Source: Methanosarcina horonobensis HB-1 = JCM 15518 (GTDB lineage Archaea > Halobacteriota > Methanosarcinia > Methanosarcinales > Methanosarcinaceae). From it: a DNA stretch of 64,000 nt. The stretch spans positions 4,071,036 through 4,135,035 of the forward strand of contig NZ_CP009516.1 in NCBI RefSeq assembly GCF_000970285.1, in the 5' to 3' direction. The position numbers and the translations under genes are program-made. Of the stretch, positions 44,825 to 63,438 are shown one piece after another (positions within the stretch are counted from its first letter, which is position 1; the number at the start of each line of letters is the position of its first letter). The notes under the pieces were generated by a model that was given only the letters and a program-made list of their open reading frames with translations, ran no database searches and was not told the origin of the DNA.

Positions 44825-47800
44825 TTATTTCCGATCTTCCGGTCTTCTTTTGTATAGAAACACAATAACCAGACAGGCTATAAACAGACAAACCGTCCAG
44901 AAAATTTTTCCGAGCTTAGAAATACTTTCAACTGCAGTTTCCTCACTTGCGGTCTGTGGTTTTACGGTATAATTTCCAGTGTTTTCTTCAACATATTCAG
45001 TCTCTTCTTCAAATTTAATCCTGGTTCCATTCCCTTTTACCGGAGTTTCGTTCACTTCATCGTTTTTAGCAGTGCCAGAAACGACGCGGGCTCTTCCAGT
45101 TCCACTTCCATGGCTGCTGTCACCAGGAACAATGAGCTGCACTTCTACACTGCTGGTCTTGTTTGAAAGCTCATTACAGCTTATAATTGCGGTATTATCG
45201 ATATCTCCATCACCGCCTCCATTGCTGTCCATATCTTCATGGGTTACAGTATAATTTCCTGTGTAAGTCCAGTTTTCTCCGACTTCAAGAACCCCGTCAC
45301 CAGTTTTTGACTCGGAAGGTCCTACCAAGGAAATCATAGGATCATTTACTGAAACTCCCGTAAGTTCGACGTTGCCTTCATTTATTACCAGGACCCCGTA
45401 CCGAATGATATCTCCTGCATCGTTTACTGCATCATTTTCACCATTAACAACTTCAAGGACGGACTTGTAGATAGAACAGTTCGGATTCCGTTCGATATAG
45501 ATTCCAGGACTAATATTGCCGCTTTCATTACCACTGTCATTAATGTACTGGATAGTACTGGAGTTCATCGGCTCCGTTTCATCGGAAATAAAAGTTACAG
45601 TGCTATTGAGGAAACCGTCACCTCCACCGTTATTGTTCAGGTCCTCCTGAGTCACAGTGTAGTTTCCAATGTAATACCAGGTTTCTCCGACAGAAAGAAC
45701 CCCGTCACCATTCTGCACGCTCCGGAATATTTCTGCAGGTTGGAAAAGCAGGAAATTAGCCACGTCACCGTATGGCCCGGTAAAGTTGACCAGAGAATCA
45801 CTGACGCTTATATTGGTAAGGTCAATGTTTCCGCTATTTGTCACATTAACCTGGAAACCGATAATGTCTCCTGCAGAACTTATATTGCCTGCAGGGCCGT
45901 TTCCAGCAATATCAACAACAATTTTCTTAATAGTACAAACAGGGTTCTTTTCTATAGGAACTGCAACACTGTCGTTTTCCGGATCAAGTTCAGTACAGTC
46001 AACTGTTGCTGTATTGTTGATGAAACCGTCCCCTCCGCCATTACTGTTCAGGTCGGCCTGAGTAACAGTATAATTACCGGTGTAAATCCAGCTCTCGCTT
46101 ACTTCAAGAACCTCATCGGTATTCAGAGATTCTATAGGCCCTGTAAGATTGATAAGAGAATCACCTACGCTTACATTGGTAAGGTCAAGATTTCCGTCGT
46201 TTGTTACGTTAATCTGGAAGCTGATGACATCCCCGGCTTTTGTTACATTTGCCAAAGATCCATTACCTGAAACATCAGTAACGGTTTTATCAATCATGTA
46301 AGCAGAAGTCTGTACTATCGAAACCGCAACACTATCGTTTTGTGAACCCAGTTCATCACAATCAACAGTTGCCGTGTTGTTGATGAAACCGTCCCCTCCG
46401 CCATTACTATTCAGGTCGGCCTGAGTAACAGTGTAAGTTCCGGTGTAAGTCCAGTTCTCACCTACATTCAAAACGCCGACTTGAGAATTGTCACCGGAAG
46501 GACCTGTAAGGTTGACAAGAAGAGGATCACTGACACTTACATTTGTCAGGTCGATGTTTCCTGTATTGTTAACATCAATCCTGTAGCTGATGATATCTCC
46601 GGACTTGGTTATATTTGCCGAAGACCCTTTTCCGGCAACGTCCGTTACGGTTTTGTCAATAATGTAAGCTGGGCTTTGTTCTATAGGGACTGCAACACTA
46701 TCGTTTTGTGAATCCAGTTCATCACAGTCAACAGCTGCCATATTATTGATATAGCCGTTTCCTCCATAATTGCTGTTCAGGTCAGACTGTGTAACAGTGT
46801 AATTACCGGTGTAAATCCAGTATTCTCCGACTTTTAAAATTCCATCAGTGGTCAGAGACTCTACAGGCCCTGTTAGGCTTATAAGAGGATCATCAACACT
46901 TAAGTTTGTAAGGTCAATGTTTCCATAATTTGTCACGTTAATCTGATAGCTGATTATATCTCCTGCAGATGTTGTATTTGCTTCAGGACCCCTGCCAGCA
47001 ACATCTATAACAATCTTACTGACTCCGTAGGCAGGATTCTGTTCAATAAGCACTTCAGCACTGTCACTTTCCTGATCAAGTTCATTACAATCTACAATTG
47101 CTGTGTTGTTAATGAACCCGTCTCCTCCACCATTATCGTTCAGATCGGCCTGAGTAACAGTGTAAGTTCCGGTGTAAGTCCAGTTCTCGCCTACGTTTAA
47201 AATGCCAGTTTGAGAATTGTCACCAAAAGGACCTGTAAGGTTGACAAGAAGAGGATCACTGACACTTACATTTGTCAGGTCGATGTTTCCTGTATTGTTA
47301 ACATCAATCTTGTAGCTGATGATATCTCCGGACTTTGTTACATTTGCCGAAGATCCGTTTCCGGCAACGTCCGTTACGGTTTTGTCAATAATGTAAGCTG
47401 GGCTTTGTTCTATATGGACTGCAACACTATCGTTTTGTGAATCCAGTTCATCACAGTTAACAGTTGCCGTATTGTTGATATAGCCGTTTCCTCCATAATT
47501 GCTGTTCAGGTCAGACTGTGTAACAGTGTAATTACCGGTGTAAATCCAGTATTCTCCGACTTTTAAAATTCCATCAGTGGCCAGAGACTCTACAGGCCCT
47601 GTAAGGCTTATAAGAGGATCATCAACACTTAAGTTTGTAAGGTCAATATTTCCATCATTTGTAACGTTAATCTGATAGCTGATTATATCTCCTGCAGATG
47701 TTGCATTTGCTTCAGGACCTCTGCCAGCAACATCTATAACAGTCTTACTGATTCCGTAGGCAGGATTCTGTTCAACAGGCACTTCAGCACTGTCACTTTC

Positions 47801-50800
47801 CTGATCAAGTTCATCACAGTCAACGGTTACTGTGTTGTTAATGAATCCGTCTCCTCCACCGTTACTGTTCAGATCAGACTGAGTAACAGTATAATTGCCA
47901 GTATAGGTCCAGTTCTCACCTACGTTTAAAATTCCGGTTTGAGAATTGTCACCGGATGGACCTGTAAGGCTGCCAAGCAGAGGATCACTAACGTTTATAT
48001 TTGTCAGGTCAGTGTTTCCGGTGTTATTAACTTCAATCTGATAGCTGATAACATCTCCTGCGACAGTTACGTTGGCTGAAGATCCTTTTCCGGAAACATC
48101 TGTAACAGTTTTGTCAATGGTGTAAGCAGGATTATATTCTAAAACAATTATGTTGGCAAAAGTAGAGTTAGTACCGTTCCCATTGCCGGCTGTCAGATTT
48201 ATAGTGTAGTTCCCAGCTATAGAATAAGTGTGCACCGGATTCTGATCGATTGAAGTATTTCCATCTCCAAAGTCCCAATTCCATTCGTCTGTGGTTTCAG
48301 AACTATCGTTGAACTGGACTGAGAGAGGGGCATAACCGCTTGTTACGTTGGTACTGAAATTAGCTACTGGAAACACCAGTTCTGGACCAATGAACTGCCC
48401 AAAGGCAATAGGAGAATTCCCTACGTTCACAGTAGCTGTAACAGTATTATTTGCTATGTCAATTACAGATACAGTGCCACTACCCATGTTGGCCACATAT
48501 GCTTTTGTCCCATCCAGAGTGACTGAAACTCCAAAAGGAGAATTTCCTGCACCCACAGAAGCTACAACATTATTGCTTGCTGTGTCAATTACAGATACAT
48601 TGCCGCTGCCCATGTTAGCCACATATACCTTTGTTCCGTCCGGACTGACTGCAACTCCTGCAGGACCCAGTTCTACATCCACAATGGCTGTAATAATGTT
48701 TGTTGCGGTATCGATTACAGAGACGGTGTTGCTGCTTTGGCTCGTTACATATGCCTTCCTTCCTGTTGGGCTAACTGTAATTCCAGTGGGTATGCCTCCT
48801 ACAGACACATTAGCTATAACAGTATTATTTGCTGTGTCAATTACAGAGACATTTCCGTTTTCTTGCGTCACATATACCTTTGTTCCCGCAGGATTGACTG
48901 CAACTCCGGCAGGTATGCTTTCCAAATCCACACTTGCTGTAACAGTATCTGTAGCTGTATCAATCACAGAAACATTATTGCTACCCTGATTCGTCACATA
49001 TACCTTTGTTCCATTCAAATTGGCTGCAACTCCAAAAGGAATGTTTCCTACAGGTACTGTGGCTACTACAGTGTTTGTTGCAATGCCAATTACAGACAGA
49101 GTGTGGCTTTGATCATTCACCACATATACCTTTCCATCCAGTGTGGCTGCAACTCCCCATGGATTGTTTTCTACATTCACAGTAGCTTTCACAGTATTAT
49201 CCGTAGTGTCAATTATAGAAACAGTGTTACTGGCGGAATTCGAAATATACGCAACCGATTGATAAGCGACTGGTTGCTCTAAAACAGTTACGTCCGTAAA
49301 CGCCGAACTCGTACCGTTTCCATTGCTTACTGTAAGATTTACGGCGTAACTACCTACTGAAGAGTAAATATGAGTCGGATTCTGTTCTGTTGAAGTGTTT
49401 CCATCTCCAAAATTCCAGTTCCATCCGGTTGTATTTCCAGAACTATCTGTAAACTGGACGGAGAGAGGAGCAAAACCACTGATCACATCACTGCTGAAGC
49501 TGGCAGCGGGATACACTGGCGGTTCTGAAACAGTTATTGTAGCAAACTTTGTATCCGTACCGTTTGCATTGCTTGCTGTAAGGTTAACAGTATAATTTCC
49601 TGCTGTAGAGAAGATGTGAGTTGGATTCTGATCTGTAGAATTGGAACTGTCGCCAAAGTTCCAGCCCCATTCAGTTGCATTCTCAGAACTGTCGTTGAAC
49701 TGAACAGTCAGAGGAGCATAACCACTGCTCACGTTGCTGCTGAAGTTAGAGACAGGAAACACTTTAGTCGAAAACTTCTGGATGCGACAATTATTTTTAT
49801 CAGCAACATAAACACTGCCAGAAGAGTCAACGGCAACGCCGGTCGGATATATAAAACTTCCGGTTGCGGTTCCAGAAGAACCCCAGGTAGTCAGGAAGGT
49901 GCCGTTACCATCAAACTTCTGAATACGATGATTATACAAATCGGTAACGTAAACATTACCAGAAGAGTCAACGGCAATACCGCGAGGATAATTAAAACTT
50001 CCGTTGACAGCTCCAGAAGAACCCCAGGTGGTCAGGAAAGCACCGTTACTATCAAACTTCTGAATGCGATGATTAAACGTATCAGCAACGTAAACATTGC
50101 TAGGAGAGTCAACGGCAATACTGTAGGGAGATATAAAACTTCCATAATCGGATCCAACAGAACCCCACGCGGTCAGGAAGATGCCGTTACTATCAAACTT
50201 CTGAATGCGATTATTTCCTGTATCAGCAACATAAACATTGCCAGAAGAGTCAACAGCAATACCCCTCGGATAATTAATATTTCCGTTGGCGGTTCCAGAA
50301 GAACCCCAGGTAATTATGAAGTTGCCACTGCTGTCAAACTTCTGAATGCGATTATTATCGGTATCGGCAACATAAACATTGCCAGAAGAGTCAACGGCAA
50401 TATCGTGGGGAGAACTAAAACTTCCGTTGGCGGTTCCAGATGAACCCCAGGTAATTATGAAGTTACCACTGCTATCAAATTTCTGAATGCGATTATTATC
50501 GGTATCGGCAACATAAACATTGCCAGAAGAGTCGACGAAAACACCGGCAGGAAAATTAAATTGACCGTTACCGGTTCCAAAAGAACCCCATTTTTTCACG
50601 AAATGATAAGGAAGTACTGGTACTGAAACACTTATGTTGGCAAAGGTAGAGTTTGTACCATTTAGGTTGCTCGCAGTAAGGTTAACAGTGTAGTTTCCTG
50701 CAGCAGAATAAACATGCATTGGATTCTGCTCGGTTGAAGTATTTCCATCTCCAAAATCCCAGTTACAGCCAGTTGCATGTTCCGATAAATCCGTAAATTG

Positions 50801-51814
50801 AACTAATAGAGGAGCATATCCACTGGTCACGTTGCTACTGAAATTTGCAACAGGAAATACCGGGTCTATTTTAGCAAATTTCTGAACGCAATCATTATCC
50901 GAATCAGCAACATAAACACTACCTGAAGAGTCGACTGCAATACCTTGCGGATTCGAAAATTGTCCGTCGTCGCTTCCATAATAACCCCATGTTGTTATGA
51001 ACATACCGCTACTGTCAAATTTCTGAATGCGGGTATTAGAGGTATCAACAACATAGACATTATTTAATGAGTCAAAGGCAATGCCCGTAGGAACATTAAA
51101 TTCTCCTTCGCCGTTTCCAGAAGAACCCCATGTGTATAGAAATATACCATTACTGCCAAACATTTGAATGCGATTATTGCCCGTATCGGCAACATAAGCA
51201 GTACCTAAAGAGTCGATTGCAATACCCTGTGGATTAGAAAATTCTCCATTACCGGTTCCAGAAGAACCCCATGTAGATATGAATCCACCACTACTGTCAA
51301 ACCTCTGAATGCGATTATTTCCTGTATCAGCAACATAAATATCGCCTAAAAAAGGGTCGACTGCAATACCTTGAGGATTAGAAAATTCCCCATCGCCTGT
51401 CCCGGAAGAACCCCACTGGGTTACAAAATTGCCATAATCATCAAACTTCTGGATCCGATTATTTTGTGTATCAACAACGTATATATTACCTGAAGAGTCA
51501 ACCGCAACACCATCTGGATAACTAAATTGTCCGTCGTCGCTTCCTTCGGAACCCCATGAGACCAGGTATCCGCCATCGCTGTCGAATTTTTGAATGCGAT
51601 GGTTTTCTGTATCAGCAACATAAACATTACCTGAAAAGTCTACAGCAACACCTCGTGGAGAATTAAATAGAGTTATGTCGCTTCCAGGAAAACCCCACTT
51701 AGTCACAAGTTGATAATCTTCTGCATGTGTAACAGAAGCGCTCATCAATACAAGAAAAAATATAATCGAACATAAAAACAATTTACTGGAGATGTTAACA
51801 CGCTGGTATTTCAT
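44825..51814 (-). CDS. Giant multidomain surface protein (NHL, PKD, YVTN, DUF11)
   Basis: 2329 residues. Signal peptide at 10-32 (SKLFLCSIIFFLVLMSASVT). Then: NHL propeller 1 (about 35-310, six blades), PKD 1 (320-398), NHL propeller 2 (409-680), PKD 2 (684-762), PKD 3 (767-845), YVTN seven-bladed propeller (849-1142, repeats like NTVSVIDTATNTV), PKD 4 (1149-1225), eight DUF11-type repeats (1227-2229), a Gly/Ser/Thr-rich stretch, and one C-terminal membrane helix (2300-2322) with a basic tail. PKD motifs (NWDFGDGNTS) are intact. It is an extracellular, cell-anchored, probably adhesive or matrix protein. There is no PGF-CTERM motif. Long plus-strand ORFs opposite it are shadows. Confidence 0.93.
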   Translation of the reverse strand: MKYQRVNISSKLFLCSIIFFLVLMSASVTHAEDYQLVTKWGFPGSDITLFNSPRGVAVDFSGNVYVADTENHRIQKFDSDGGYLVSWGSEGSDDGQFSYPDGVAVDSSGNIYVVDTQNNRIQKFDDYGNFVTQWGSSGTGDGEFSNPQGIAVDPFLGDIYVADTGNNRIQRFDSSGGFISTWGSSGTGNGEFSNPQGIAIDSLGTAYVADTGNNRIQMFGSNGIFLYTWGSSGNGEGEFNVPTGIAFDSLNNVYVVDTSNTRIQKFDSSGMFITTWGYYGSDDGQFSNPQGIAVDSSGSVYVADSDNDCVQKFAKIDPVFPVANFSSNVTSGYAPLLVQFTDLSEHATGCNWDFGDGNTSTEQNPMHVYSAAGNYTVNLTASNLNGTNSTFANISVSVPVLPYHFVKKWGSFGTGNGQFNFPAGVFVDSSGNVYVADTDNNRIQKFDSSGNFIITWGSSGTANGSFSSPHDIAVDSSGNVYVADTDNNRIQKFDSSGNFIITWGSSGTANGNINYPRGIAVDSSGNVYVADTGNNRIQKFDSNGIFLTAWGSVGSDYGSFISPYSIAVDSPSNVYVADTFNHRIQKFDSNGAFLTTWGSSGAVNGSFNYPRGIAVDSSGNVYVTDLYNHRIQKFDGNGTFLTTWGSSGTATGSFIYPTGVAVDSSGSVYVADKNNCRIQKFSTKVFPVSNFSSNVSSGYAPLTVQFNDSSENATEWGWNFGDSSNSTDQNPTHIFSTAGNYTVNLTASNANGTDTKFATITVSEPPVYPAASFSSDVISGFAPLSVQFTDSSGNTTGWNWNFGDGNTSTEQNPTHIYSSVGSYAVNLTVSNGNGTSSAFTDVTVLEQPVAYQSVAYISNSASNTVSIIDTTDNTVKATVNVENNPWGVAATLDGKVYVVNDQSHTLSVIGIATNTVVATVPVGNIPFGVAANLNGTKVYVTNQGSNNVSVIDTATDTVTASVDLESIPAGVAVNPAGTKVYVTQENGNVSVIDTANNTVIANVSVGGIPTGITVSPTGRKAYVTSQSSNTVSVIDTATNIITAIVDVELGPAGVAVSPDGTKVYVANMGSGNVSVIDTASNNVVASVGAGNSPFGVSVTLDGTKAYVANMGSGTVSVIDIANNTVTATVNVGNSPIAFGQFIGPELVFPVANFSTNVTSGYAPLSVQFNDSSETTDEWNWDFGDGNTSIDQNPVHTYSIAGNYTINLTAGNGNGTNSTFANIIVLEYNPAYTIDKTVTDVSGKGSSANVTVAGDVISYQIEVNNTGNTDLTNINVSDPLLGSLTGPSGDNSQTGILNVGENWTYTGNYTVTQSDLNSNGGGDGFINNTVTVDCDELDQESDSAEVPVEQNPAYGISKTVIDVAGRGPEANATSAGDIISYQINVTNDGNIDLTNLSVDDPLISLTGPVESLATDGILKVGEYWIYTGNYTVTQSDLNSNYGGNGYINNTATVNCDELDSQNDSVAVHIEQSPAYIIDKTVTDVAGNGSSANVTKSGDIISYKIDVNNTGNIDLTNVSVSDPLLVNLTGPFGDNSQTGILNVGENWTYTGTYTVTQADLNDNGGGDGFINNTAIVDCNELDQESDSAEVLIEQNPAYGVSKIVIDVAGRGPEANTTSAGDIISYQINVTNYGNIDLTNLSVDDPLISLTGPVESLTTDGILKVGEYWIYTGNYTVTQSDLNSNYGGNGYINNMAAVDCDELDSQNDSVAVPIEQSPAYIIDKTVTDVAGKGSSANITKSGDIISYRIDVNNTGNIDLTNVSVSDPLLVNLTGPSGDNSQVGVLNVGENWTYTGTYTVTQADLNSNGGGDGFINNTATVDCDELGSQNDSVAVSIVQTSAYMIDKTVTDVSGNGSLANVTKAGDVISFQINVTNDGNLDLTNVSVGDSLINLTGPIESLNTDEVLEVSESWIYTGNYTVTQADLNSNGGGDGFINNTATVDCTELDPENDSVAVPIEKNPVCTIKKIVVDIAGNGPAGNISSAGDIIGFQVNVTNSGNIDLTNISVSDSLVNFTGPYGDVANFLLFQPAEIFRSVQNGDGVLSVGETWYYIGNYTVTQEDLNNNGGGDGFLNSTVTFISDETEPMNSSTIQYINDSGNESGNISPGIYIERNPNCSIYKSVLEVVNGENDAVNDAGDIIRYGVLVINEGNVELTGVSVNDPMISLVGPSESKTGDGVLEVGENWTYTGNYTVTHEDMDSNGGGDGDIDNTAIISCNELSNKTSSVEVQLIVPGDSSHGSGTGRARVVSGTAKNDEVNETPVKGNGTRIKFEEETEYVEENTGNYTVKPQTASEETAVESISKLGKIFWTVCLFIACLVIVFLYKRRPEDRK
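45130..48135 (-). repeat. Eight DUF11 domain repeats, partly as a duplicated A-B pair
   Basis: Repeat period is about 365 bases (about 121 residues). In protein order the units read A1 (47770-48135), B1 (47405-47770), A2 (47035-47405), B2 (46670-47035), A3 (46305-46670), then three diverged units (to 45940, 45485 and 45130). B1 and B2 share strings such as VIDVAGRGPEAN and VGEYWIYTGNYTVTQSDLNS. A2 and A3 share SGDIISY and NIDLTNVSVSDPLLVNLTGP. The A-B pair of about 730 bases was therefore duplicated recently. Confidence 0.85.
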
Positions 51815-52708: not shown

Positions 52709-55624
52709 ATGAGAAAGTTCAATATAAATCTGGAATCGCTTATAAACAGCAGCCCCATAGTCATTTTTTTGTGCAAGTCAACTGAGAACTGGCCTGTTGA
52801 ACTTATCACGGAAAATATCCAGCAGTTCGGGTATACAGTTAAAGATTTAATCTCCGGAAAGATCCGTTATCTTGATATTGTTCATCCTGATGATATCGAA
52901 AGGATAAGATCGGAGGTTGCCGGATGTCTGGAGAAAGAGTGCACCGAACTGACACAGGAGTACAGAATTTATACAGCCTCAGGAGAAACACGCTGGGTTG
53001 AGGTAAAGATCCGAATCCGGAAAGATGAAGACGGAAAAGTTAGCCACTATCAGGGTACTCTCTATGATGCTACCCAGCGTAAAAAAGCCGAAGAATCGAT
53101 GCAAAAAGCTCTGAAAAAGAAGAATGAATTAAAAAATGTAATTAACAGCAGTCCTGTATTCGTATTTTTGTGCAGGCCGGAAGAAGGCTGGCCTGTCGAA
53201 TTTGTTTCCGAAAACATTACAAAGCTTGGTTACACCCCGGAAGATTTTACTTCAAGGGAAATGCTGTACACAGATCTTATCCATCCCGGAGATAGGGAGA
53301 GAATTCGCTCTGAGGTCGAAAAGTTTTCCAGAGAAGGCTATACCGAATGTACCTAGGAATATCGGGTCCTTACGAAATCAGGGAAGATAAGATATATCGA
53401 TGACAGGACCCTTATCAGAAGGAACAAAGAAGGAAAAATCACTTACTACCAGGGCATAATTGTTGACATAACCGAGCGCAAGCTGGCAGAAGAAATGGTT
53501 AAGGGGCAGAATATGGTGCTCGGTAAGCTGGCCTCTGGAGCCCCACTCGAAGAAGTGCTCCTCCCTCTTATTCGGAGTATGGAAAAGATCAGACCTGAAT
53601 CCATATGCTCGGTAATGCTTCTTGACCGTGAAAAAAAGCATCTCTTTTACTGCGTTGCTCCGGAACTTCCTGAATTTTACAGACAGAAAACTGACAGGAT
53701 CAAGGTCGGTTTTGGAGCAGCTTCTTTCGGGACCGCAGCCTGCTTGAAAAAAAGGGTAACTGTAGACAATGTAATGGAACATCCTTACTGGACAGAATAC
53801 AGGGAACTTGCAGCTGAGGCCGGGCTGAAAGCCTGCTGGTCAGAACCCATAATCTCGTCCTCCGGAGAGGTCCTTGGAGTAATTTCCATGCACTACAGCG
53901 AGACACGCAGGCCGGATAAAGAGGATCTTGACTTTATGAAAACAAATGCCCAGCTGGCAGCTATTGCAATAGAACATAAACTGGCAGAAGAGACCCTCCG
54001 GGAATCCGAACATAAGTTCAGGACCATTTTCAATAACATCAATGACCAGCTGTACATCCGCGAGCCTGAAGGACAGAGTTACATGGACGTAAACCAGGCA
54101 GTGGTAAAAAGGCTCGGGTATGATAAGGAAGAGATCCTGAAAATGGAAGCAGAGGAGATTATTCCTGCCGAGTACTGGGCATCGGTCCGGGAAAACCTCA
54201 AGAAAATCCAGAGAGAAGGGTCAAGGGTTTACGAAGCCGGAGCGGTATGCAAGGATGGCACTGTTGTCCCTCTCGAAGTAAGCGCCAGGATAATCGATTA
54301 TGAAGGCAAGAAAACGATCCTCTCGGTTGCCAGGGACATAACGGAACGCAAAAAGGCAGAAGCTGCCCAGAAACTTAACGAAGCCCGGCTCGAAGCCCTG
54401 GTAAAACTTAACCAGATGACAGGAGCCTCACTAAAAGAAATAACGGACTTTGCACGGGAAGAGGCAGTCAGGCTTACGGGCAGCAAGCTAGGATATCTTG
54501 CTTTCATGGACGCTTACGAAACCTCCCTGATCATGCACTCCTGGTCAAAGAGTGCGATGGAAGAATGTGCAATTGAAGACAAACGCTTCATTTATCCCGT
54601 AAAAACTACAGGGCTCTGGGGAGAAGCAGTCCGACAGCGTAAGCCCATAATTACAAACGATTACACAGTCCCTAGCTCCCTGAAAAAAGGATACCCGAAA
54701 AACCATGTGCACCTTACCCGCCATATGAACGTGCCTGTATTTGACGGAGACAGGATAGTTGCTGTTGCAGGCGTGGGAAACAAGGATGAGCCCTATGATG
54801 AATCGGACTTGCGCCAGCTGACCCTTCTAATGCAGGGCATGTGGCAGCTTATCCAGAGAAAGCAACTTGAAGATGCGCTTAAAGCTTACTCTGAAGACCT
54901 TTCTAAAGCCAACGATGAACTCAGGTCCCTGAACAGGATAAAAGCGGAATTTATGGCTGAAAGCCTGCCCCAGATAAAAGTAGATTATAGCGACCTCATG
55001 GACTTCGACACCTTTGAGACTATAGAAGACCAGCAGCAGAAAGCTATAGATTCCGTAATCAATAGTTCGGAGCGACTGAGGCAGATGGTGGATTCCCTGC
55101 TCTACCTGAGCCTTGAACAGGCAGGGAAGATCGAATACTCTTTTACCGAAGTGGAGATAAAAAAGATACTTTCGGACGTTTACCTTAACCTGGTCCTCCT
55201 GATCGATGAAAAAGAACTGAAGGTCGAAAAAGAACTGCCTGCAAACCTGCCTCCCATCCGTGGCGACAAGCAGAAGTTGACAGACCTGTTCACAACTCTC
55301 ATGGGCAATGCTATCAAGTTCACGCCCCATGGTGGTAAGCTGGAAGTAAAAGCTTCGGAGGAAGAAGATAACATCCATATAACCGTAAAAGACAGCGGAA
55401 CAGGTATCCATAAAAGGCTGGTTCCTCACCTTTTCCACAGGATCTATCAGGTTGACGATTCTTTGACCCGCAGGTACCAGGGGCTTGAATCAGGATTTTA
55501 CATATGTAAAAACATTGTCAATGCCCATGAAGGGGAGATCTGGGTAGAGAGTGAGGAAGGTTCGGGAACTATCATGCATGTAAGGCTTCAGAAAAAGAAG
55601 TCTGAAACCCGAAGAGAGAATTGA
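52709..55624 (+). CDS. PAS/GAF sensor kinase of the MsmS/RdmS type with an in-frame TAG
   Basis: Read through TAG 53354-53356 the frame encodes 971 residues, residue 216 being the TAG. Order: PAS 1 (5-130), PAS 2 (135-265, holding the TAG), GAF 1 (270-425), PAS 3 (430-550), GAF 2 (560-720), dimerisation region (725-830) and HATPase domain (855-970; N box MGNAIKFTPHGG, G1 VKDSGTGIHK). The canonical H-box histidine is missing (EFMAESLPQIKVDYSDLM). GAF 2 has a Cys at 620 (MEECAIEDKRF), a plausible counterpart of the heme-linked Cys reported in MsmS. Without readthrough the locus yields a 215-residue fragment, and a downstream ATG (53495) lacks a good ribosome-binding site. It adjoins an Msr regulator and an Mts gene, as RdmS and MsmS do in M. 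acetivorans (from memory). Confidence 0.85.
53354..53356 (+). other. Candidate pyrrolysine codon (in-frame TAG)
   Basis: The aligned sister PAS repeat reads ELTQEYRIYT; here the sequence reads ECT-TAG-EYRVLT, so TAG replaces CAG. The PAS 2 fold continues downstream (ITYYQGIIVDITERKLAEE). An inverted repeat GGGTCCT / AGGACCC (53364-53370 with 53405-53411) begins 7 bases after the TAG. Confidence 0.65.
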
Positions 55625-55689: not shown

Positions 55690-56478
55690 ATGAAACTGGA
55701 AATGCTGGGCACTCTTTTCCTCTCGGACAAAAGGAAAGACCTTCTTTTGCTACTGATGGAAGAGCCCCGAAATATTGACGATATAAAAAATATACTTAAT
55801 GTAACATCAAGTGCAATCATGACCCAGATCAAGATCCTAATAAGCCAGGGGCTTATTATCCATGAAGATGACCTTTACAAGCTCTCAGATATCGGGAAGG
55901 TGGTTGTTAAGAAAATGGTACCTCTTCTGAACACCCTTGGAGTGTTTTCGGATAATATGGACTACTGGGAAAACCATAATATCAGTGCAATCCCTGCTCA
56001 TCTCCTGGACCGGATAGATGATCTCGGGCAATGCGAATTCATCGAACCCGACCTTGACAGGATGTATGAAATCCCCCAGAGAATTGAAGAAAAACTGGTA
56101 CAGTCAACCCGTGTTATGGAAGTTTCTTCTTATTTTAATCCTGCTTATCCCTCTACCTATGTAGAGCTTGTGAAGAAAGGAACTGAAATATCTTTGATAA
56201 TTACAAAGCCGGTCTTTGAAAGGCTGAAAAGAGAGTACAGCACATCCCTCAGGGAGTATCTGGAAAGAGACAACGCAAAAATCTGTGTCTGCGACTGCCC
56301 TGTAAAGGTAGCGTCAAGCGTAGTAACAGACCGTTTTCTGGCTCTTTCCCTCTTCTATAGAAACGGGATATACCACAACCATGCAATGATGAGTATGGAG
56401 AAAACAGCCCTGAAATGGGGAGAAGACCTTTTTTTGCATTACATGAAAAACTCAAAGGAAATAAAGGAAATCGAATGA
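55690..56478 (+). CDS. msrF: Msr-family transcription regulator (wHTH plus FilR1 domain)
   Basis: 262 residues. Residues 5-80 are a winged helix of the ArsR type (RKDLLLLLMEEPRNIDDIKN; IMTQIKILISQGLI). Residues about 125-260 form the FilR1 / methanogenesis-regulator C-terminal domain (ending SMEKTALKWGEDLFLHYM). Msr proteins control methyltransferase isozyme genes in Methanosarcina; MsrF, MsrC and MsrG are linked to mtsD, mtsF and mtsH. The neighbours here (sensor kinase upstream, Mts, hydantoinase-type gene and thermosome downstream) best fit my memory of the msrF/mtsD locus, hence the symbol, which is tentative. TGGAG precedes the ATG. Confidence 0.8.
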   Translation: MKLEMLGTLFLSDKRKDLLLLLMEEPRNIDDIKNILNVTSSAIMTQIKILISQGLIIHEDDLYKLSDIGKVVVKKMVPLLNTLGVFSDNMDYWENHNISAIPAHLLDRIDDLGQCEFIEPDLDRMYEIPQRIEEKLVQSTRVMEVSSYFNPAYPSTYVELVKKGTEISLIITKPVFERLKREYSTSLREYLERDNAKICVCDCPVKVASSVVTDRFLALSLFYRNGIYHNHAMMSMEKTALKWGEDLFLHYMKNSKEIKEIE

Positions 56479-59333: not shown

Positions 59334-61238
59334 ATGGCAGCAGACATTTTTAACCAATTAGCGGAAGCTGTCGTCGACGGAGACGACGACCTTGCAGAAG
59401 AACTGGCACAAAAAGCACTTGACGAAGGCGTTGACCCCTACGACGCAATCGTTAACGGGCTGGCAAGAGGAATGGCAATTGTCAGTGACCAGTATGAAAA
59501 AGGAGAAGCTTTTGTACCTCACCTGCTCCTGGCTTCAGGTGCAATGTATGCAGGCATGGACATTCTTTCCCCTGAAATGATAAAAGAAGGGGAATCCATG
59601 CAGGCTGTGGGCGTTATAGGAACAATCGAAGGAGACGTTCACGACATCGGAAAAAACCTTGTAAAGACTATGCTCAGTGCAAACGGGTTCGAAATGATCG
59701 ATCTTGGTGCTGATGTACCTATCGAAAAATTTGTCGAAACCGCAAAAGAGCACAGAGCCGACCTTATTTCCATGAGTGCACTGATGACAACAACCATGAC
59801 CAATATGGAAAAGGTCGTTGAGATCCTTCAGGAAGAAGGCGTCCGTGACTCCATGAAAATTATGATTGGAGGAGCTCCTGTTTCCGAAGAATATGCCGCA
59901 GGAATCGGGGCAGACTCAACCCATCCTGATGCGATGCACGCAAGCGCATGGGCATCCGAAGCTGTAAAGGAACTTGAACCCAAAGCTACAAGGTGGAGTG
60001 AAGAGAGAATCAACCTTGGAAAAATCAAGTACAGGGAGATCCTTGCAAAGAAGACTGTTTCCGGTAAAGTGGACATCGGGCTTGAAACTGCTAACAAGAT
60101 TAAGGAAGAGTTCGAAAGCATTGGCGTAAAGAGCAAGGAGGAAATGACCCACTTCGACAGGACAGTATCTGCCATGTCCGATAAAAAAGTCGACCGTCTG
60201 CCTGTCTATCCTCTTGCATGCGGTGTCCTCAGGAAATTTGCCGGGGTCAACTACAGGGATTATGCCACAAAAGCAGGAGCATTCACAGAGAGCGCTTTCC
60301 TTGGCTGCAAGTATCTGGATCTTGACATGTTTGTAGGGCTTGCCGACCTTTCAGCTACGTCCGCAGACTTCGGATGCAAGATCAAATATCCCGAAGATGA
60401 TACACCGTCCTCTGAAGGACATATCAAGGACTATGAGAAGATCGAGGTCCCTGAGCTTAAGGAAGGCACCCGCGGCTATGAACTGGTCATGGCTTCAAAG
60501 ATGGCAAAGGAGAAAATCAACAAGGAACTTAACACTCCTTTTGTAGGCTTCCATGAAGGGCCATTGTTAACCCTCACCCAGCTCATGGGTGCAGACCGCG
60601 TGCTCATGGATATGAAGACCCAGCCTGATGTTGTCCTTGAAGCTGTCCAGAAGTGTACCGATTACATCTGCCAGCTTTCCGAGCTCTTCTTCAATGAAGG
60701 TGCCTGTGATGCACTCTGTATTGATAACCTCTGGTCCAACAACGTTATCATGAGCGAGCAGGACTACTGGAAGTTCGACGGAAAGTTCGTGTACGACCAG
60801 CAGATTCCCATATTTAAGCAATATAACCAGCCGTATATCATCCACAACTGTGCTGATGCCGTACACTTTGAGACCCAGATCAGGAAGTTCGGCACCTCCC
60901 TCTACAGTTACGCCTACTATGAGAAGTCCAGAGACAAGGGATCCCAGAACTACGCAGACCTCATCCCCAAGTATGGAGACATATGCTGCATGATGGGAGA
61001 AGTTAACCCTGTTGAGTTCATGGACGGATCAGCAGCCGGTGTGCAGAAGGTAAAGGACGACACAAGGAACCTGCTCGAAAATGTGCTGCCTGTGCTCAAG
61101 GAGAACGGTCTCCAGTCCAAGTATGTCCTGTCTTCTGGCTGTGAAATCCCGCCAGGCGGCCCGCTGACAACCGTGCAGGCAATGGTGAACACCGTAAAGG
61201 AACTTGGTCCGGAACTCCAGAAGAAAATAATGGGGTAA
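59334..61238 (+). CDS. mtsD: Fused corrinoid protein/methyltransferase, Mts (methyl-sulfide) family
   Basis: 634 residues. Residues 1-90 form the helical cap and 90-215 the B12-binding domain with DVHDIGKNLV (Asp101, His103 as cobalt ligand, Gly106), SALMTTTM and GGAPV. Residues 270-634 are a uroporphyrinogen-decarboxylase-fold methyltransferase of the MtaA/MtbA class, with zinc ligands His504-X-Cys506 (IIHNCADAV) and Cys603 (SSGCEIPPGGP). The fusion replaces separate corrinoid and CoM-methylating subunits and is typical of MtsD, MtsF and MtsH. It moves methyl groups between methyl sulfides (such as dimethylsulfide or methanethiol) and coenzyme M. The symbol mtsD rests on gene neighbourhood remembered from M. 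acetivorans and is tentative. Confidence 0.88.
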   Translation: MAADIFNQLAEAVVDGDDDLAEELAQKALDEGVDPYDAIVNGLARGMAIVSDQYEKGEAFVPHLLLASGAMYAGMDILSPEMIKEGESMQAVGVIGTIEGDVHDIGKNLVKTMLSANGFEMIDLGADVPIEKFVETAKEHRADLISMSALMTTTMTNMEKVVEILQEEGVRDSMKIMIGGAPVSEEYAAGIGADSTHPDAMHASAWASEAVKELEPKATRWSEERINLGKIKYREILAKKTVSGKVDIGLETANKIKEEFESIGVKSKEEMTHFDRTVSAMSDKKVDRLPVYPLACGVLRKFAGVNYRDYATKAGAFTESAFLGCKYLDLDMFVGLADLSATSADFGCKIKYPEDDTPSSEGHIKDYEKIEVPELKEGTRGYELVMASKMAKEKINKELNTPFVGFHEGPLLTLTQLMGADRVLMDMKTQPDVVLEAVQKCTDYICQLSELFFNEGACDALCIDNLWSNNVIMSEQDYWKFDGKFVYDQQIPIFKQYNQPYIIHNCADAVHFETQIRKFGTSLYSYAYYEKSRDKGSQNYADLIPKYGDICCMMGEVNPVEFMDGSAAGVQKVKDDTRNLLENVLPVLKENGLQSKYVLSSGCEIPPGGPLTTVQAMVNTVKELGPELQKKIMG

Positions 61239-61503: not shown

Positions 61504-63438
61504 ATGTATCTTGGACTGGGAGTTGATACGGGAGGGACATATACCGATGCTGCTATCATGGATATGTCAAATGGAGAAGTAATCGAGTCAAATAAAGCAC
61601 TTACAACTTATCCTGACCTTATTAGAGGAATAAAGAATTCGATTGAAGGACTGGACCCTGGATGCCTGAAAAAGATAAAATTCGTCTCTGTCTCTACAAC
61701 CCTTGCTACCAATACCACTCTTGAGGGCAAGGGCTACCCTGCAGGGCTGATCCTTATAGGACATACGATTCCCAAAAAACTTGCCAGCCGCTATGTGATA
61801 TCAATCGGAGGAGGGCATGATTCTGACGGGAACGAAACTGCTCCTCTTGAAGGCCTGGAAACGGTAAGAGAGTTTGTCAGGCAGGTAAAGAATAAGGTAG
61901 CTGCATTTGCAGTTTCCGGATACTTCGGAGTCAGAAACCCTGAACATGAACTCAGGGTCAAGGAAGTAGTTCAAGAAATGACGGACATGCCGGTTGTCTG
62001 CGGGCATGAACTTTCCATGAGTCTTGGGGCTTACGAAAGGGCTGTGACAGCTCTCCTGAACGCCGAACTGATCCCGGTAAGCAAGCAGTTTATCAAATCC
62101 GTCCAGGCAGTAATGGAAGAAAAGGAAATAAAAGCAACCCTGATGATGATGAAGTGCGACGGATCTCTTGTTCGCATAGAAGAGGCCCTGCAAAAACCCG
62201 TAGAATCAATCTTTTCCGGACCTGCAGCAAGCCTTGTGGGGGCTGCACATCTTACCGGGCTTGACACCTGTGCAACCGTGGATGTAGGAGGCACAAGTAC
62301 CGATATTGCCATGGTTTCCGGAGGTGTTCCGGAGATAAGTGATTCCGGAGCAAGAGTGGGGGGCTGGAAAACAATGGTAAAAGCGATCAGGATGGAGACT
62401 TCAGCCCTCGGTGGAGACAGCCTGGTCTGGATCAGAAGAAAGCCATTTCTGGGTCCGGCAAGAGTGATTCCCCTCTGCCTTGCAGCCTCAGAGTTTCCGG
62501 GACTTTTAAAGAAACTGGAGAAAAGTGATCTTCCTAACGAACGTATAATGGACGAGATCATACAGCCAACTTCTTTTTTTGTAAGGAACGGAGGAGATTC
62601 TTTCGAACTTCTCAGCGGTGATCTCGAAGAAGATGAGAAGATGATTCTTGAATGTCTGGGAACTGAGCCTCTTTCAATATCCGAGCTCTCTGAAAAGACA
62701 GGCAAACACCCGCTACTGTTTGCAGGAAATCTGAAAGACCTCATCAGGAAAAGGCATGTAAGCCAGATAGGGTTTACCCCAACCGATGCCCTTCACGTGC
62801 TTGGAGAATATGTAAGATGGGACGGAAGAGCTTCCTTTACAGGAGCAAAAATCCTTGGAAAAACCCTCAAACAGGGAGCAGAGGATTTTTCAGCCAGGAT
62901 TAAAGCTGAAGTCGTAAGAAAACTTACTCTTGAACTGATTTCTTTCTTTGCGGAAGACCTGAAAAAAGAGGACATTGAAAAGCTTCTGGCAAAAGAAAAT
63001 GTCCTGAGATTCCACGTAAATGTCCCTGTAGTGCTGGTAGGCGCACCTGTAAGGGCATATCTGAAAGAACTGAACAGGGCTGTGGACGCAGACATAAGGA
63101 TTCCTGCTTTCCACGAGGTAGGAAATGCAGTGGGTGCCCTTGCAGGAAAAGTTGTCCACAGGACAGAGATCCTTATCCGCCCTTCAGCAGCAGGGAACGC
63201 AGAATATTCCGTATTCTCAAGGCTTGGAAAAGAAGTTTTTGAGGATTACGGAGAAGCTCTGGACTACGGGCTTAAGCTGAGCCACAGGTTGATTTCGGAG
63301 TACATGGACGGATACGGGCTTGAAATGGACAATGTGAAATTTGACCTTAAACAGAACGATGTGGGAAGCAGAGGAAAAGCCCCTCTGGAAACCCGCCTGA
63401 TCGGAGTCGGAATAGGGACGACCGGGAAACTGGCGTAA
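61504..63438 (+). CDS. Hydantoinase/oxoprolinase-family protein (ASKHA fold)
   Basis: 644 residues. Phosphate 1 motif LGVDTGGTYTDAAIMDM and phosphate 2 motif ATVDVGGTSTDIAMVSGG are intact. FVSVSTTLATNTTLEGKGYP and VESIFSGPAASLVGAAHLTG are also hallmarks of HyuA-type proteins. A wHTH-like segment (about residues 395-440, ILECLGTEPLSISELSEKTG) is inserted in the C-terminal half, unusual for a HyuA subunit. No HyuB partner follows. Placement after the Mts gene suggests a role with the methyltransferase, perhaps ATP-driven reactivation or modification of a corrinoid enzyme; that is inference. A strong GAGGAGG site precedes the ATG. Confidence 0.8.
   Translation: MYLGLGVDTGGTYTDAAIMDMSNGEVIESNKALTTYPDLIRGIKNSIEGLDPGCLKKIKFVSVSTTLATNTTLEGKGYPAGLILIGHTIPKKLASRYVISIGGGHDSDGNETAPLEGLETVREFVRQVKNKVAAFAVSGYFGVRNPEHELRVKEVVQEMTDMPVVCGHELSMSLGAYERAVTALLNAELIPVSKQFIKSVQAVMEEKEIKATLMMMKCDGSLVRIEEALQKPVESIFSGPAASLVGAAHLTGLDTCATVDVGGTSTDIAMVSGGVPEISDSGARVGGWKTMVKAIRMETSALGGDSLVWIRRKPFLGPARVIPLCLAASEFPGLLKKLEKSDLPNERIMDEIIQPTSFFVRNGGDSFELLSGDLEEDEKMILECLGTEPLSISELSEKTGKHPLLFAGNLKDLIRKRHVSQIGFTPTDALHVLGEYVRWDGRASFTGAKILGKTLKQGAEDFSARIKAEVVRKLTLELISFFAEDLKKEDIEKLLAKENVLRFHVNVPVVLVGAPVRAYLKELNRAVDADIRIPAFHEVGNAVGALAGKVVHRTEILIRPSAAGNAEYSVFSRLGKEVFEDYGEALDYGLKLSHRLISEYMDGYGLEMDNVKFDLKQNDVGSRGKAPLETRLIGVGIGTTGKLA

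Follow-up and report, generated by a model that had tools for sequence, protein, structure and literature searches.

The window analysed here, a stretch of 64,000 nucleotides from Methanosarcina horonobensis HB-1 = JCM 15518, contains a sensor kinase gene whose frame is interrupted by one internal stop, a TAG at codon 216, with 215 open codons before it and 755 after it, as the earlier note had described and our reading of the ORFs confirmed; the terminal stop is a TGA. When the kinase was scanned against Pfam with the TAG treated as a residue, matches to PAS_3, GAF_2 and HATPase_c were obtained, and a PAS_3/PAS match spans codon 216, confirming together with the structural model discussed below that the PAS domain continues past the TAG. 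The sister PAS domain of the same kinase has CAG at the aligned position, again as had been noted before. As regards the covalent heme expected of an RdmS, Cys620 in the second GAF domain aligns with a Cys retained in most relatives. No HisKA family was matched by Pfam in the kinase, so that the H-box of classical histidine kinases was not found; a PAS/GAF sensor part joined to HATPase_c without an H-box is the definition of RdmS (MA_type 2 kinase) in PMC11784639, which we have adopted.

The kinase lies upstream of an MtsD-type methyl-sulfide methyltransferase, and the next gene encodes a Msr/FilR1-type regulator, a setting that also characterizes RdmS (Table 1). The hydantoinase/ASKHA-type protein encoded further along probably serves in corrinoid activation. 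On its other side the kinase adjoins a minus-strand gene (44825–51814) for a predicted surface protein of 2329 aa with many NHL/beta-propeller-like, PKD-like and other repeats. In UBA9310 the regulator gene was matched in two adjoining pieces (L026:11215-11999), possibly owing to an interruption or an assembly artefact.

Table 1. Features of the kinase gene and its downstream neighbours, in window coordinates.
Feature	Coordinates	Strand	Basis
Sensor kinase of RdmS type; 971 codons, the TAG being predicted to encode pyrrolysine; PAS-PAS-GAF-PAS-GAF-HATPase_c	52709..55624	+	87% identity to likely M. acetivorans RdmS orthologue (L007)
TAG-holding PAS2 domain	53105..53503	+	Pfam match, AF2 model
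Codon 216, in-frame TAG of PAS2 (candidate pyrrolysine)	53354..53356	+	TAG in 16/16 orthologues; also at the homologous position in 7 g7/g10 genes (6 complete, 1 fragment)
Codons from TAG to next ATG/GTG/TTG (53495 in this genome)	53357..53494	+	pN/pS 0.135, 16 orthologues
FilR1/Msr-type regulator (HTH_5 + FilR1_middle), next gene	55690..56478	+	Pfam scan, neighbourhood comparison
MtsD-type fused corrinoid protein/methyltransferase (B12-binding + URO-D)	59334..61238	+	Pfam scan, neighbourhood comparison
Hydantoinase/ASKHA-type protein, conserved next gene	61504..63438	+	Pfam scan, neighbourhood comparison

Judged by its sequence, the window gene is this organism's orthologue of RdmS. The RdmS (MA0863) of M. 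acetivorans is 87% identical to it over 971 residues and has the same gene neighbours, and the gene in genome G001, which we infer to be M. acetivorans partly from gene positions and the residue number, has TAG at exactly codon 216. The M. acetivorans protein has no H-box and binds and hydrolyses ATP (PMC11784639); its residue 216 has been written O, and a variant designated RdmS_O216K, that is, recombinant RdmS with Lys at 216, has been produced and binds heme (PMC7542351). This biochemistry belongs to another species, whereas the window kinase is known from its sequence. The designation of the window gene in the earlier note as a methyl-sulfide sensor kinase holds as regards its location in a methyl-sulfide operon but is no more than a possibility as regards the sensed ligand, the M. 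acetivorans orthologue having been described as a thiol/heme redox sensor.

TAG is a genuine but rare stop in this genome. In a sample made up of the window plus 300 kb in 15 additional stretches of 20 kb, it terminates 9 of 212 other ORFs of at least 150 aa (4.2%), and none of those in the window, in agreement with the earlier statement that none of 37 complete CDSs checked ends in TAG. Eight of the nine could be traced onward and showed at most 28 open codons behind the TAG, the ninth being left out of this count since it reaches the end of its sampled stretch. The 755 homologous codons that follow the kinase TAG are therefore not due to chance, and an ordinary stop with a fortuitous extension is ruled out by these sampled stops together with the downstream constraint described below.

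A search of 31 congeneric genomes and 112 genomes of the family yielded 16 orthologues including the window gene, 12 in its own genus and 4 in a second one, with identities of 80–100%. The earlier note had proposed asking whether orthologues have TAG or CAG at this codon: all 16 have TAG at codon 216. As these come from separate genome assemblies, a recent nonsense mutation with passive readthrough, which had been put forward as the alternative, is ruled out, and so is a sequencing error.

Selection on the protein is seen on both sides of the TAG. Pooled over the 16 orthologues, pN/pS is 0.205 upstream of it, 0.135 (95% CI 0.075–0.210) from it up to the start codon that comes next in the window gene, and 0.119 past that start; the median Jukes-Cantor dN/dS downstream of the TAG is 0.056, synonymous divergence being near saturation with dS from the window gene of up to about 1.75 among the orthologues. 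Behind the TAG the 16 genes contain no stop in frame 0, against totals of 734 in frame 1 and 669 in frame 2. It might be supposed that two proteins are made without any readthrough, namely a PAS-only N-terminal fragment and a GAF-kinase initiated at the next start, and in this genome an ORF of 709 codons does begin at 53495. However, internal starts behind the TAG are absent or not common to the 16 orthologues, two of which (L035 and L038) have no ATG, GTG or TTG up to aligned column 270, the N-terminal fragment would stop in the middle of a strand of PAS2, and purifying selection on the stretch separating the TAG from that start argues against termination followed by reinitiation. The constraint, the openness of frame 0 and the non-conserved starts taken together mean that translation continues in the same frame from the upstream into the downstream part; they rule out an independent gene that begins behind the TAG and leave the two-protein arrangement very improbable. 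Termination at the UAG would yield nothing but a broken PAS2, probably waste.

A candidate pyrrolysine protein was defined here by an orthologue-conserved in-frame TAG with coding constraint on both sides, as just described, and by tRNA-Pyl and PylS in the genome. The latter are present, the genome (G000) carrying tRNA-Pyl(CUA), PylS and PylC in one cluster, along with two mtmB genes with in-frame TAG. PylS was above the cut-off in all genomes with a TAG-bearing kinase except one, which is 60% complete, a result that does not discriminate, PylS being found in almost all genomes of the family. The example of the amber-containing methyltransferases in these genomes makes it very likely that UAG 216 is decoded as pyrrolysine: the codon would be read by tRNA-Pyl charged by PylS, giving a kinase of 971 residues with pyrrolysine on a beta strand of PAS2. 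Behind the TAG, no conserved RNA structure was found, the alifold energy being unremarkable (30 of 95 gene windows are lower), nor was a PYLIS-like element, which occurs in some pyrrolysine genes and is not required; this null result fits reports that RNA elements behind the UAG are dispensable (PMC2933860, PMC9499178).

Using PAS2 as a query, a TAG-bearing PAS domain was recovered in 7 further genes of two other genera, g7 and g10, with 59–62% identity over the domain and the TAG at the homologous codon in all 7. Six are complete kinases of 557–688 residues (counted from the first Met) in which the TAG is codon 85; the regulator, MtsD and ASKHA genes lie behind five of these as they do in the window, L134 being the exception. 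The seventh is a truncated fragment (L135:9434-10012, G067) that runs only a little way into GAF before a TAA; it looks decayed yet retains the TAG. The TAG thus stands at one PAS codon in 22 complete genes and one fragment from four genera in total, and the earlier proposal of a full-length kinase with pyrrolysine at residue 216 gains support from the 16 orthologues and from the 6 complete homologues in two more genera. TAG-free relatives have Q, K, R, H, S, V, A or I at the site; kinases of genus g11 that adjoin the same regulator and MtsD have CAG (Gln), and the MsmS paralogues, 62–64% identical and of like architecture, differ in having AAG (Lys). On the kinase-core tree the distribution of the TAG requires at least 3 changes, and on the PAS tree a single clade of TAG-bearing PAS domains is not rejected (p-AU 0.36); domain shuffling is a likely part of this history. 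Such conservation across four genera suggests that the codon probably matters to the sensor.

In the AF2 model (mean pLDDT 81), residue 216 lies inside strand 213–221 of PAS2, probably Gbeta, and Val occupies the aligned position in 3nja and 3mr0, both PAS domains of solved structure; matches in the structure search were general PAS pairs only (LOV-HK, FixL, bHLH-PAS). The alternation of the strand with its E-Y-R motif and the Val of 3nja and 3mr0 suggest that the side chain of residue 216 probably faces the PAS cavity, its ligand-side orientation being deduced from strand parity.

The known cases of pyrrolysine outside methylamine methyltransferases (Thg1, transposases) look dispensable or sporadic, and it could be imagined that here too the residue is just tolerated, the TAG having persisted by chance after an ancient mutation. 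The variety of residues tolerated at the site in relatives would agree with this, as would the pyrrolysine of M. acetivorans Thg1, a documented dispensable case (PMC2933860). Against it stand the absence of any loss in 22 complete genes, the cost in product of every termination at the UAG, and the outcome of a neutrality test. Given a 4-fold-site tree length of 5.22 substitutions, about 4.4 first-position changes from T to C or A (Gln or Lys) are expected among the 16 RdmS genes and none is observed, with P about 0.012, or about 0.002 if Glu is also permitted; these moderate values come from a simple calculation on one tree instead of a full codon model, and they cover the RdmS genes, the addition of the g7 and g10 genes being qualitative. 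Neutral retention is thus disfavoured by the sequence comparison, and we consider it improbable.

The reading that we prefer, with a probability of roughly 0.7, is that the full-length kinase carries pyrrolysine on the PAS strand and that the residue is kept by selection, probably for its side chain. The kinase would need the electrophilic side chain of pyrrolysine on the side of the PAS sheet that faces the ligand, where it may take part in sensing or in signal transfer to the GAF/ATPase core and hence in the expression of the neighbouring methyl-sulfide methyltransferase. As the O216K variant can be made and is able to bind heme, pyrrolysine is not necessary for production or heme binding, and any role is more likely to be found in sensing or signalling; the Lys of MsmS and the Gln of the g11 operon kinases likewise mean that a related kinase can do without it. 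More tentatively, and at somewhat less than even odds, the imine-bearing side chain in the PAS domain may have a conserved and selected role, as the group that senses or passes on the signal, in a kinase family connected with methanogenesis from methyl sulfides and spread over at least four Methanosarcinaceae genera.

The main rival to a side-chain role holds that the residue itself hardly matters and that competition between Pyl-tRNA and release factor sets the amount of full-length kinase, coupling methyl-sulfide signalling to pyrrolysine (methylamine) status; the earlier note had suggested such a coupling by way of two protein forms. Partial termination is indeed to be expected, a reporter UAG in M. 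acetivorans having given 20–30% full-length product (PMC2933860); no conserved RNA element that would force readthrough was found; and a second type of g7 kinase has its TAG elsewhere, at the Trp codon of MHSW in GAF in three species, which may mean that the location is of no importance. For nothing more than a gate, however, any location would serve, whereas the TAG is fixed at one homologous PAS codon, 216 in one architecture and 85 in the other, and a need for such coupling is not known. This fixed place in the PAS fold despite differing gene architectures favours a role of the side chain, as far as sequences can tell, and we regard regulation by pyrrolysine supply as unlikely.

Several further genes with in-frame TAG were encountered. 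The second g7 type, in L073, L074 and L075 (G051, G048 and G050), is a shorter PAS-GAF-HATPase kinase adjoining a FilR1-type regulator and a corrinoid protein, and its conserved TAG, at a codon that in relatives stands for the Trp, lies a few residues before a conserved Cys; it is thus another candidate for a pyrrolysine kinase. A related kinase in L100:8761-10413 (G067) has a single in-frame TAG in GAF (KKCYQ*EDVEV), in one genome only. In L071 (G064, genus g10), the classical H-box of a kinase (SHELKTPL) is closely followed by the only in-frame TAG of the gene (GGVND*QKLAL). Two g10 species share, behind their mts genes (L095:18595-19656 and L096:1254-2297), a URO-D/methylcobamide:CoM methyltransferase-like gene in which one and the same codon is an in-frame TAG; g7 homologues have Phe or Leu at that place.

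Pyrrolysine in the M. acetivorans version of this kinase is already known (PMC7542351, PMC3639795); what is new here is the finding that 22 complete genes from four genera conserve the TAG, the constraint across it, the neutrality test and the TAG-free natural controls. PMC3639795 predicts a sensory kinase with in-frame UAG in three species, M. acetivorans, M. mahii and M. barkeri, which may be RdmS: the M. acetivorans gene, split into two annotated genes, would fit one of the L007 type, and the M. mahii pseudogene would fit one of the L096 type, with L071 as an alternative candidate, while the M. barkeri member named there is not accounted for by our searches. MsmS (MA4561), with which we equate the 64% paralogue in G001, has been linked to methyl-sulfide metabolism (PMC6944256). 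The conserved PAS TAG and the natural Lys and Gln homologues make a conserved function of pyrrolysine outside methyl transfer directly testable in a genetically tractable organism.

A parallel exists with MtmB, MtbB and MttB, which likewise have a single conserved in-frame TAG served by the same decoding machinery. The established uses of pyrrolysine are nearly all in such methylamine methyltransferases; these are enzymes in which it is thought to act in methyl transfer, whereas the protein encoded in the window is a signalling protein.
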